DNA from: an uncultured Pelagibacteraceae bacterium
GTDB taxonomy: Bacteria; Pseudomonadota; Alphaproteobacteria; Pelagibacterales; Pelagibacteraceae
Direction of reading: 5' to 3'
NCBI GenBank assembly: GCA_902515185.1
Contig: CABXTN010000005.1
Coordinates: 1 to 56,925 of the forward strand
DNA length: 56,925 nucleotides
The notes beneath the pieces were generated by a model. The model did not search any database. It was not told the origin of the DNA and was given only the letters and a program-made list of their open reading frames with translations. Shown piece by piece: positions 31,437 through 40,057 of the stretch (positions are counted from its first letter, which is position 1; each line of letters starts with the position of its first letter). Position numbers and translations under genes: made by a program.

Positions 31437-32571
31437 TTAGTAATTTAATCGCATAACTAAGTTGGTTGTCTGTCTCTGTATCTATCCGGAATTCGTCATT
31501 TTCTTCAGCAACAACTATATCAGGAGTTACACCAACTTCAGAAATTGACTTTCCTGATGGAAGATAATATTTAGAAATAGTAAGTCTTATAGCTCCATTA
31601 TTTTTAAGTGGAATTATTGACTGTACAGATCCTTTTCCATAACTATTTTCACCAATTAAAATTGCTCTTTTATGATCTTTAAGAGCACCAGCTACTATCT
31701 CAGAAGCAGAAGCTGATCCATTATTAATTAAAACCACCAGGGTTTTTCCTTTTAAAATATCTCCACTTTTTGCAAACCATTTTCTATTTTCACTCTCTTT
31801 CCTAGATTTTGTAGAAACAATTTCTCCACTTGAAAGAAAAAAATCAGATATCTTGATTGCTTGAGATAACAATCCACCAGGATTATTTCTTAAATCTAAA
31901 ATGAAACCTTTAATTTTTTGATTACCATTAAATTCATTGAGTTTTTTTTTTATTTGTTTGCCACTATTCTCATTAAACGCTGTTAATCTAATATATCCAA
32001 TATTATTATCTATTATCTTTGATTTAACAGATTTTATTTTTATAATTTTCCTTGTTATGTTAAATGTTAGAGCTTTTTTTACACCTATACGTCTTACAGT
32101 AATTTCAATATTTGATCCAACAGGACCCCTCATAAGCTCAACAGCTTCCGATAATGTTTTTCCTTGTACCTGAATATTATTGATTTTGACAATATAATCA
32201 CCCGCTTTCACACCAACCTCGTAAGCAGGAGAGTCATCAAGTGGGGAGATAACTTTAACCACTCCAGATTCCATACTGACTTCAATTCCTAGTCCACCAA
32301 ACTCACCACTAGTTTCAGTTTGCATATTTTGAAAAGATTCAGGCGACATATATGCAGAATATGGATCTAATGATTGCAAAACGCCATTAATAGCTGAATC
32401 CATTACCTCTGATTGATCTACCTCATCAACATATTCCTTATTTATTTTATTTAAAACTTCACTAAATAAATCAATCTTTTCATAGATAGTTACTTCTGCT
32501 GCAGCAAAAGAATTTTTATTTAATAACAACGAAAATAATATAAAGAAAATTATAGTCTTCGATTTATTCAT
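31429..32571 (-). CDS. ctpA: Carboxyl-terminal processing protease, S41 family
   Basis: This is a periplasmic S41A serine protease of the CtpA/Prc type that trims or degrades envelope proteins, including peptidoglycan hydrolases in several bacteria. Residues 1 to 23 form a signal peptide (hydrophobic FFILFSLLLNKNSFAAA). A PDZ domain follows (about 90-170, with FGGLGIEVSMESGVVKVI and PAYEVGVKAGDYIVKIN). The catalytic core has NNGSASASEIVAGALKDH with the nucleophile serine and GENSYGKGSVQS with the general-base lysine. The length of 380 residues is short but complete, lacking a long C-terminal tail. It overlaps rsfS by four bases. Confidence 0.93.
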   Translation of the reverse strand: MNKSKTIIFFILFSLLLNKNSFAAAEVTIYEKIDLFSEVLNKINKEYVDEVDQSEVMDSAINGVLQSLDPYSAYMSPESFQNMQTETSGEFGGLGIEVSMESGVVKVISPLDDSPAYEVGVKAGDYIVKINNIQVQGKTLSEAVELMRGPVGSNIEITVRRIGVKKALTFNITRKIIKIKSVKSKIIDNNIGYIRLTAFNENSGKQIKKKLNEFNGNQKIKGFILDLRNNPGGLLSQAIKISDFFLSSGEIVSTKSRKESENRKWFAKSGDILKGKTLVVLINNGSASASEIVAGALKDHKRAILIGENSYGKGSVQSIIPLKNNGAIRLTISKYYLPSGKSISEVGVTPDIVVAEENDEFRIDTETDNQLSYAIKLLNG

Positions 32572-37549: not shown

Positions 37550-38266
37550 TTAAAAATTATCCTTTAAATCTCTCAATTTTGAAAATTCCTCTAGAGTTTT
37601 TGCTCTCAAAAAAATATTACAAGCTAATTCATCCTTTATTGTTGTTGGGATAGTTGGTTTATTATTTTGTAAATTATCTTTAATTTTAAATATTTTATTT
37701 TTTAAATCTAAGTTTTCTCTGTCATACTCAAGACAAAATAAAGAATTATTATAAGTATATTCATGACCACAATATACTCTAGTAATTCCAGGTAATTGCT
37801 TTAATTTTTCTAAAGAATTAAACATATCTCTGTATGTACCTTCAAATATCCTTCCACACCCTAAAGAAAAAAGTGTATCCCCAGTAAAAGCGATTTGGTC
37901 ATTAAAAAAATAAAAACAAATATGTCCAGATGTATGACCAGGTATATGAATAATTTTTGCTTCAAATTCATCTGATTTCCAGATTTCATTATCATTTAAT
38001 AAAATATCTATTCCTAATATTCTATCTTTGTCATCTTTGTAACCAAGAATTTTTGAGCCATATTTTTTCTTTATTTCAGAATTTCCACCAATATGATCAA
38101 AATGATGATGTGTATTTAAGATATATTTTAATTTAAGATTATTTTTTTCAACAAATTTTATGACTGGTTCAGCTTCTCCAGGATCTACAACACATGCGTT
38201 TTTTTTTGAATCTATAATTAAATAAGAATAATTGTCCTGTAAACATTTTATAATTTCAGTTTTCAT
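37550..38266 (-). CDS. gloB: Hydroxyacylglutathione hydrolase (glyoxalase II)
   Basis: GloB hydrolyses S-lactoylglutathione to lactate and glutathione, detoxifying methylglyoxal. It is a metallo-beta-lactamase-fold enzyme with the di-metal motif THHHFDHIGGN (residues 52-60 region), IIHIPGHTSGHICFY, FTGDTLFSLGCGRIFEG and VYCGHEYTYNN. The C-terminal glyoxalase II domain (about 170-238, PTIPTTIKDELACNIFLRA) contacts glutathione. The length is 238 residues. It is the last gene of the metX-metW-gloB group, adjacent to metW without a gap. Confidence 0.93.
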   Translation of the reverse strand: MKTEIIKCLQDNYSYLIIDSKKNACVVDPGEAEPVIKFVEKNNLKLKYILNTHHHFDHIGGNSEIKKKYGSKILGYKDDKDRILGIDILLNDNEIWKSDEFEAKIIHIPGHTSGHICFYFFNDQIAFTGDTLFSLGCGRIFEGTYRDMFNSLEKLKQLPGITRVYCGHEYTYNNSLFCLEYDRENLDLKNKIFKIKDNLQNNKPTIPTTIKDELACNIFLRAKTLEEFSKLRDLKDNF

Positions 38267-38821
38267 CTATTTTTCAATTATAAATATACCAAGTTCAGAA
38301 AAAAAATTAATATAATTTAAATTTGGGCAGTTAATTTTAATTTTTTTTCTACTACAATAATTTACAAAATCTTTTATTGAGCACATATGTAAATTTGGAG
38401 TATCATACCATTCATTAGGGAGATTTTTTGTTACAGGCATCGTACCTTTAAGAAGTAGATGAAATCTTACTTTCCAATGAGCAAAGTTTGGTATTGATAC
38501 AATAGCCTTTTTTCCAACACGTAATAATTCATTTATTACATTTTCAGGATCTAAAAAAGCTTGCAGTGTTTGACTTAAAATAACAAAATCATATGAAGAA
38601 TTTGGGAATTGTTTTAAATCTTTTTCAGCATCACCTTCAATTACCGTTAGTCCTCTAGCTATACATTTTTGAATATTCTTTTTTGAAATTTCTAAGCCCC
38701 TTACATCTTCAGTGATATTTTCGCTAATATATTTCATTAGCTCACCGTCACCGCATCCAACATCAAGTACTTTAGAATTATTTTCCAATAAATTTGCAAT
38801 TGTATAAAACTCTTTTTTCAT
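38267..38821 (-). CDS. metW: Methionine biosynthesis protein MetW
   Basis: MetW is a class I SAM-dependent methyltransferase-like protein that is nearly always beside metX and is needed for full homoserine acyltransferase activity in several Proteobacteria. Motif I is VLDVGCGDGELMKYI; DFVILSQTLQAFLDPENVINELLRVGKKAIVSIPNFAHWKVR is the family centre. The length of 184 residues is normal. It overlaps metX by four bases (38818-38821) and is followed directly by gloB. Confidence 0.94.
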   Translation of the reverse strand: MKKEFYTIANLLENNSKVLDVGCGDGELMKYISENITEDVRGLEISKKNIQKCIARGLTVIEGDAEKDLKQFPNSSYDFVILSQTLQAFLDPENVINELLRVGKKAIVSIPNFAHWKVRFHLLLKGTMPVTKNLPNEWYDTPNLHMCSIKDFVNYCSRKKIKINCPNLNYINFFSELGIFIIEK

Positions 38822-39939
38822 TGAATTTTTTTATAAGACATATTTAAATAATTTTTTACTGCGTTTAAAAAATCTGGAACATCTAATAAGAATGAATCAT
38901 GACCTTTATCTGAAGTGATTTCAACAAAACCAACGTCTTTACCAATTGCATTTAAAGCTATAACAATATCTCTATTTTCAGATGTCGGATATAGCCAATC
39001 TGAGGTAAAAGATATTATAAAAAATTTAGTTTCACTTTTTTCAAAAGCCTTTGACAAGTTTCCCTCATATTGTTTAGTTAAATCGAAATAATCCATTGCT
39101 CTAGTTATATATAAATAACTATTTGCATCAAATCTATCAACGAAAACTGAACCTTGATATCTTAAATAACTCTCAATTTGAAAGTCAGCATCAAAACCAA
39201 ATTTTAAATCATCTCTTTCTTGAAGTTTTCTTCCAAATTTTTCTTGTAAACCTTTTTTTGATAAATAAGTTATATGCGCAGCCATTCTTGCTACAGCAAG
39301 TCCTTTATCAGGAACTTTTTGCTTCTCAGCATAAAAACCATTCATCCAATTATGATCTGCCATTATTGATTGTCTTCCAAGCTCATTTAATGCAATATTC
39401 TGTGCTGAGTGACTTGCAGTACAAGCTATTGGTATTGCAGTGTGAGAACTATCAGGAAAATTTGAAACAAATTGAAGTACTTGCATTCCACCCATAGACC
39501 CACCAATGACAGAAAATAGTTTTTTTATCTTAAATGCTTCTAAAAGATTATACTGTGCATTTACCATATCATTTATTGTTATTACAGGAAAATTAGTTCC
39601 AAATGGCTTGTCGACTTTATCATCTAAGTGACTTGGTCCATATGACCCCATACATCCACCAATCACGTTTGCACAAATAACAAAAAATTTATTCGTATCG
39701 ATTGATTTACCTGGTCCAAGTGCGTGACTCCACCATCCTTCCTTTTTTGTTATAGGATTTATACCACAAGCAAACTGATCACCAGTTAAAGCATGGAAAA
39801 CCAAAATCGCATTATCTTTCTTTTCATTTAACTTACCATATGTTTCGTAAGCTAGAGGAAAATTTTGTATTGTTTTACCACAATCAAGTTTAAGTGGTTT
39901 TTCAACTATTAATTTTTTCACTTTTTCAATTTTATTCAT
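38818..39939 (-). CDS. metX: Homoserine O-acyltransferase MetX
   Basis: MetX acylates homoserine (acetyl-CoA in most family members, succinyl-CoA in some), the first committed step to methionine. It is an alpha/beta hydrolase-fold enzyme: FHALTGDQFACG, the nucleophile elbow VIGGSMGGMQVLQF, and the catalytic His in SDKGHDSFLLD near the C-terminus. The length is 373 residues. Which acyl donor is used cannot be read safely from motifs. The gene is preceded by a promoter and a SAM-II aptamer, so expression should fall when S-adenosylmethionine is high. The start ATG at 39939 lies about 34 bases after the aptamer, without a clear Shine-Dalgarno. Confidence 0.95.
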   Translation of the reverse strand: MNKIEKVKKLIVEKPLKLDCGKTIQNFPLAYETYGKLNEKKDNAILVFHALTGDQFACGINPITKKEGWWSHALGPGKSIDTNKFFVICANVIGGCMGSYGPSHLDDKVDKPFGTNFPVITINDMVNAQYNLLEAFKIKKLFSVIGGSMGGMQVLQFVSNFPDSSHTAIPIACTASHSAQNIALNELGRQSIMADHNWMNGFYAEKQKVPDKGLAVARMAAHITYLSKKGLQEKFGRKLQERDDLKFGFDADFQIESYLRYQGSVFVDRFDANSYLYITRAMDYFDLTKQYEGNLSKAFEKSETKFFIISFTSDWLYPTSENRDIVIALNAIGKDVGFVEITSDKGHDSFLLDVPDFLNAVKNYLNMSYKKIQ

Positions 39940-39972
39940 TTTTTATCATTTATGAATTGAGAGGAAAAAAAA

Positions 39973-40024
39973 ACTTATTTAGCGGTTTTTTTATCGCGCT
40001 CGCAATTCAGTTAAATCAGCGCAC
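39973..40024 (-). promoter_or_regulatory. SAM-II riboswitch ahead of metX
   Basis: Read on the - strand, bases 40024 to 39973 match the SAM-II (metX/SAM-alpha) aptamer as I know it. P1 forms between TGCGCT and AGCGCG (one U-G wobble, five Watson-Crick pairs). The loop contains GATTTAACTGAATTGCG, with the conserved GATTTAA. Downstream come GATAAA and CCGCTAAATAAGT. ACT in the loop can pair with AGT at the end (ACC/GG-type pairing in the structurally solved Sargasso Sea aptamer, so a compensatory change), and TTGC can pair with GC-bulge-AA, forming the pseudoknot. The predicted transcription start is at the first aptamer base. The gene controlled is metX, the known target of this class. Confidence 0.9.
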
Positions 40025-40028
40025 TTTT

Positions 40029-40057
40029 TTTGTACTAAAAGATTTTTATTATGTCAA
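40029..40057 (-). promoter_or_regulatory. Promoter of the SAM-II/metX-metW-gloB transcript
   Basis: On the - strand a perfect TTGACA (40057-40052) and TACAAA (40034-40029) are separated by 17 bases. The expected start near 40022-40024 coincides with the 5' end of the SAM-II aptamer, which supports both calls. Confidence 0.75.

Follow-up and report, generated by a model that had tools for sequence, protein, structure and literature searches.

The leader of metX, the gene for homoserine O-acetyltransferase, was analysed in the window, that is, the whole 56,925-nucleotide stretch of contig CABXTN010000005.1 (assembly GCA_902515185.1), whose source organism is a member of the Pelagibacteraceae near named Pelagibacter records. 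This leader carries an S-adenosylmethionine (SAM)-II aptamer and, directly after the nine T that follow it (the U-tract), a conserved element, here called the lock, that is complementary to part of the aptamer; on the minus strand, from 40057 to 39937, the promoter is followed by the aptamer, the nine T, CCTCTCAATTCA and the start of metX (Table 1). That the aptamer is SAM-II and competes with the lock for the same strands is very probable on the strength of predicted folds and of conservation among relatives. The reading favoured here, at somewhat less than even confidence, is that of a bistable riboswitch, in which a lock hairpin would alternate with the SAM-II pseudoknot and the output would be a stop of transcription at the U-tract.

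Regarding the aptamer, the segment from 40022 to 39972 is a SAM-II aptamer, and from its sequence it would be expected to bind SAM. P1, the GATTTAA loop, GCTAAA, and ATAAG with nine T, all described in the initial annotation, were located on the minus strand. In a relaxed Rfam search, RF01726 (SAM-II) matched with 33.3 bits, with an E value of 6.5e-5 for a short stretch and 0.016 for the whole window, and RF00521 (SAM_alpha) matched with 26.6 bits at the same place and strand; the curated cut-offs are 44 and 36 bits, respectively, and a search at the gathering threshold gave no match in the window. The covariance models thus recover the element on the expected strand under relaxed conditions, with both scores below the curated limits. 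Within the 1.04 Mb genome, the metX-leader aptamer is the top RF00521 match (E 2.5e-4, the next one being ∼1), and the model finds a match at E ≤0.01 in 183 of the 247 Pelagibacteraceae genomes. None of these 247 genomes passes the curated cut-off of either model, which makes the low score a trait of the lineage, for which the curated SAM-II cut-off appears too strict. Placement of the aptamer in front of metX-metW-gloB, as originally proposed, is supported by the Rfam matches, by this spread and by the identities of the genes; it is not new, since SAM-II ahead of metX has already been published for Candidatus Pelagibacter ubique (Cand. P. ubique; PMC2704228).

The pairing of the aptamer was evaluated on 27 sequences from eight genera. 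P1 had 96.3% of its cells paired, with column pair 6–27 found as UA, CG or UG, while P2a was paired in 100% of the cells; neither its strand UUGC, the partner of GC(U)AA, nor the conserved GAUUU loop showed any variation. As for P2b, column pair 16–52 was CG in 15 sequences, UA in 10 and UG in 1, with weaker outer pairs, which confirms that the ACT/AGT of this leader is a compensatory change with respect to the ACC/GG of the solved metX aptamer. Two-sided changes in P1 and P2b amounted to 17 cells, the shuffled value being 7.5; when the SAM-II structure was slid, the result was far worse in all cases.

The promoter described in the initial annotation, TTGACA and TACAAA at 17-base spacing, was found on the minus strand. 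The spacer between the −35 and −10 boxes is 17 bases in 98 of the 99 distinct leaders of the genus, and the distance from the −10 box to P1 is six bases in 93 of them; this fixed spacing suggests that transcription probably begins with G40022, where P1 starts, or one or two bases away at most. Hence, the earlier placement of the start at the first base of the aptamer holds in that it falls near the start of P1, and not in that the Rfam model begins at 40030. As TACAAA lacks a final T, the metX promoter escaped a plain sigma-70 scan. It is usual for SAM-II to have a promoter close to the consensus a few bases ahead of P1 (Corbino et al., PMC1273637), and the arrangement is typical of the class, not unusual.

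The lock escaped the initial annotation. It is placed directly after the U-tract, which is flush with P2b and consists of 6–9 residues in 97 of the 98 measured leaders, and of 5 in the remaining one. Across the 99 distinct leaders, the mean identity of the lock is 0.954, a value similar to the 0.947 of the aptamer, and drops to 0.487 over the next 13 bases; its consensus is CTC(A/T)CAATTC(A/G). With one mismatch, the lock is the reverse complement of the aptamer segment TGAATTGcGAG, which spans the loop and UUGC of P2a and reaches into the 3′ strand of P1 at its top. Among 92 regular cases, there are two clearly variable columns: the one facing the mismatched C, with A in 73, T in 17, C in 2 and G in none, and the last one, with A in 82 and G in 10, either of which can pair with U. 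Variation at positions that are either non-pairing or wobble-tolerant fits with pairing. None of 2000 dinucleotide shuffles, and 3 of 2000 simple ones, produced an aptamer-tail duplex as stable as that of the window. The 11-mer has two copies in the genome, one of them here, and its interpretation as a genome-wide operator or regulon site was rejected on this count. A separate tail element, TCAGC, TTAGC or TTGGC, lies ∼7–9 bases before the metX ATG in 34 of 63 distinct Pelagibacter leaders (e.g., L035, L037, L045, L067 and L088) and is complementary, wobble included, to the 5′ strand of P1; it is absent from the leader of the window and from its clade, and it is not claimed for them.

The A-run at 39992–39985 is the partner of the U-tract in the hairpin predicted for the ligand-free RNA. 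Folding energies, which leave out pseudoknots and the energy of SAM, keep P1 in the predicted minimum up to a transcript length of 66 (−12.2 kcal/mol); once the whole lock has been transcribed, at length 70, the lock hairpin takes over as the minimum (−13.4 kcal/mol); in isolation, this hairpin is predicted at about −14.1 kcal/mol. The two folds share strands and are predicted to be mutually exclusive. Over 77 leaders, masking the aptamer raised the predicted probability of being unpaired from 0.12 to 0.55 for the U-tract and from 0.19 to 0.46 for the lock; the openness of positions −8 to +8 at the start codon was 0.60 both masked and free (lower in 44 of the 77). These shifts suggest that SAM binding should expose the U-tract and the lock without hiding the start codon, and a model based on occlusion between the U-tract and the start codon was rejected as unsupported by these accessibilities.

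As for the mechanism, the riboswitch would begin at the 5′ end of the transcript, or a few bases from it. With SAM bound, the RNA would adopt the usual P1/P2a/P2b pseudoknot, ending flush at the U-tract; without SAM, the lock would pair with TGAATTGcGAG and the U-tract with the A-run, and both P2a and P1 would be destroyed. As with the platforms of the sister genera, the effect of SAM on metX would most likely be to switch it off. The SAM-stabilized pseudoknot, standing beside a bare U-tract, may cause RNA polymerase to stop or release there, and transcripts that proceed past this point would be captured by the lock in the second fold, so that SAM arriving later would have no effect on them. 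This stop with lock capture is the leading guess about the output, weakly held and rather doubtful; a transcriptional output would fit the position of the U-tract and the attenuators of the relatives.

Indeed, in the sister genera g2, g3, g4, g6 and g8, a hairpin GCCCrG...CUGGG followed by 8–10 T lies between the aptamer and metX at 40 of 40 loci. The g4 leader also has an antiterminator in competition with the terminator, UAGCUAAA...UUUAGCUG, with GGG/CCC inside it, of −13.8 kcal/mol versus −12.0 kcal/mol for the terminator. In genera g9 and g12, and at one g7 locus, P2b contains GAGGA or AGGGA and is separated from the AUG by a short hairpin, which perhaps shortens the distance to this codon; leaders of this kind (L195, L196, L198, L200, L201, L204, L206, L207 and L209) represent a third type of platform. 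Neither the terminator nor the Shine-Dalgarno-plus-hairpin platform was found at the metX loci of g5, of which the tree includes four; the terminator scan detected no terminator in the window, the stretch between aptamer and gene included, and no terminator match occurred at loci of the lock type. In the metX protein tree, the lock type forms one clade (support 100/99), as does the Shine-Dalgarno-plus-hairpin type (99/96), and the terminator type falls in two clades. The simplest reading is that the lock replaced the terminator once, in the ancestor of the genus, a direction that is likely with the midpoint rooting used for this tree. A broader proposal, that in Pelagibacter an anti-aptamer lock took the place of the metX terminator and the output became one as yet undescribed for SAM-II, either a hairpin-less stop at the pseudoknot and U-tract or a reversed polarity, is tentative and on the unlikely side.

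Several points weigh against the bistable switch with a U-tract stop. P2b is short and AU-rich, hence a poor base for a terminator, and a terminator-like hairpin was not found; in addition, the lock is located 3′ of the U-tract, too late to act as an antiterminator or to prevent a stop there. In Cand. P. ubique, the 23 genes altered sixfold or more when sulphur was limiting include bhmT, mmuM and metY but not metX (PMC5069961). The main weakness is that no two-sided covariation was found in the lock helix within the genus, because the aptamer strand is itself fixed and the lock near-invariant; the conservation of the lock could then stem from another cause, the aptamer strand being constrained anyway. 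The near-invariance and the lack of covariation would suit a lock that serves as a site for a protein or a small RNA, with an incidental complementarity to the loop and no anti-aptamer role. This is quite improbable given the outcome of both kinds of shuffles (0/2000 and 3/2000), the presence of the 11-mer just twice in the genome, which disagrees with a regulon site, and the confinement of its variation to non-pairing or wobble-tolerant positions.

Other outputs must be weighed as well. An ordinary translational SAM-II, in which the SAM-bound pseudoknot bars ribosomes from metX, has in its favour the review that takes metX RNA as its model (PMC10907184), and the AUG is only 8–19 bases past the lock. 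Such control appears improbable, since there is no Shine-Dalgarno in or near P2b and the region from −8 to +8 is equally open with the aptamer masked or free. About equally improbable is a SAM-controlled decay of the mRNA, whereby SAM would bare the U-tract and the lock as a single-stranded RNase E site that the second fold would shield; it agrees with the predicted exposure of both elements when the aptamer is masked and has a precedent in the lysC riboswitch of E. coli, for which ligand-exposed RNase E sites have been described. In S. meliloti, instead, high SAM accompanied stabilized SAM-II mRNAs (PMC9373788). Finally, the polarity may be reversed, with the second fold hampering initiation near the start codon and SAM opening the leader to increase metX; the predicted exposure of the U-tract and lock upon aptamer formation and the fact that metX is missing among the genes listed as induced by low sulphur (PMC5069961) are in line with it. 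Nevertheless, a reversed switch would be illogical for a gene of the methionine pathway, and every sister genus with a platform has an off-type one; this is the least probable of the readings.

The platform of the relatives also bears on a well-studied RNA. The laboratory SAM-II RNA UCGCGCUGAUUUAACCGUAUUGCAAGCGCGUGAUAAAUGUAGCUAAAAAGGG, which we take to be the construct of crystal structure 2QWY, shares 52 identical nucleotides with metX leaders from two g4 genomes (L212 and L213, positions 1501–1600). Its sequence is that printed in PMC8494917; Huang and Lilley described metX RNA as a rare translational SAM-II (PMC6061858), and a 2024 review presents it as a model of direct occlusion (PMC10907184). 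In the g4 leader, these 52 nucleotides are followed by GCCCAGTTTAGCTGGGC and nine T, recognized as an intrinsic terminator by an independent scan, and this hairpin recurs at 22 of the 22 g4 loci examined. An ATG occurs just ahead of the hairpin at 14 of the 22 loci, in frame with metX in 13. Translational control may thus operate as well, but the constant feature of the g4 metX leader is the terminator.

Compared with SAM-II/SAM_alpha (RF00521, RF01726, and metX of Cand. P. ubique), the leader of the window is alike in its aptamer, pseudoknot, upstream promoter and metX, and differs for its scores below the Rfam cut-offs, for the lack of a terminator hairpin or Shine-Dalgarno, and for the conserved lock after the U-tract. 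The sister SAR11 genera (g2, g3, g4, g6 and g8) have the gene, promoter layout and aptamer core in common with it, but bear the GCCCrG...CUGGG hairpin with U8–10, and UUUAGC within their terminator is a potential partner for the P2 strand GCUAAA. The 2QWY RNA, also a metX SAM-II of marine bacteria and matching the g4 leaders, has CC/GG in P2b with a GGGG run, and natively a terminator follows. Lastly, the tandem SAM-II/SAM-V of bhmT is likewise a SAR11 SAM-II with a poly-U close by, but its poly-U is preceded by a terminator hairpin and followed by SAM-V. No convincing SAM-V was found in the 87%-complete assembly of the organism of the window (best E 0.68), whereas Cand. P. ubique HTCC1062 has several. 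A second SAM-II-like element, CCTGATTTAGA...TTGCTGGGAC...CGCTAAAGGAG...ATG, with the Shine-Dalgarno inside P2b, precedes a gene other than metX (L187, L146).

Table 1. Coordinates of the metX leader elements and of the genes downstream
Feature	Position	Strand	Details
Sigma-70-type promoter	40029..40057	−	TTGACA 40057–40052, 17-base spacer, TACAAA 40034–40029
SAM-II aptamer	39972..40022	−	Rfam matches, family spread, pair counts
P1 stem	40022–40018 / 40000–39996	−	GCGCT / AGCGC; part of the SAM-II aptamer
Aptamer loop	40017–40011	−	GATTTAA; from sequence
P2b	40012–40009 / 39975–39972	−	AACT with AGTT; part of the aptamer
P2a	40005–40002 / 39983–39982 + 39980–39979	−	TTGC with GC.AA; part of the aptamer
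GCTAAA of the aptamer	39983–39978	−	From sequence
U-tract	39965..39973	−	Nine T, flush with the P2b 3′ strand
Lock	39953..39963	−	CTCTCAATTCA, 11 bases, complementary to 40009–39999 TGAATTGCGAG
Predicted ligand-free hairpin excluding the aptamer	39953..40009	−	Lock helix + A7C/GU7 inner helix
metX, homoserine O-acetyltransferase	38818..39939	−	NF001209, 509.5 bits (cut-off 331)
metW	38267..38821	−	TIGR02081, 219.6 bits (cut-off 189.5); overlaps the metX end
gloB, hydroxyacylglutathione hydrolase	37550..38266	−	TIGR03413, 273 bits (cut-off 200.8)

Regarding the surroundings, the aptamer precedes a methionine-biosynthesis gene, metX, as is proper to SAM-II, and on its other side hisC and a prephenate dehydrogenase gene are divergent. 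The metX ATG is at 39939–39937 on the minus strand, and the distance of 34 bases to it from the first T of the U-tract was confirmed. No Shine-Dalgarno occurs within or next to P2b in this leader; its lack had been regarded as unusual, but it is ordinary in this stretch of the genome, as 40 of the 47 open reading frames with 150 codons or more that the window contains are not preceded by a Shine-Dalgarno-like 4-mer. In two single-cell genomes (L065 and L085), the metX ATG reads ATA or ATT, with an in-frame ATG six codons on; this clade may use a different metX start, or the change may derive from sequencing errors. Elsewhere in the window, positions 31614–31737 of the plus strand gave a sub-threshold match to Rickettsia sRNA47 (RF02800), with 26.7 of the 60 bits required and E 0.0058.

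In conclusion, Pelagibacter metX is predicted to have lost the usual parts of an off-switch and to bear in their stead a conserved strand that could undo the aptamer, and the RNA used in the literature as a model for direct occlusion of the ribosome site is identical to SAR11 leaders that have a full terminator and antiterminator. SAR11 is among the most abundant groups of marine bacteria and has few regulators, so that SAM sensing matters for its sulphur economy. With one aptamer kept on one gene, and its expression platform exchanged in clean clades, the evolution of riboswitch output becomes testable in this family.
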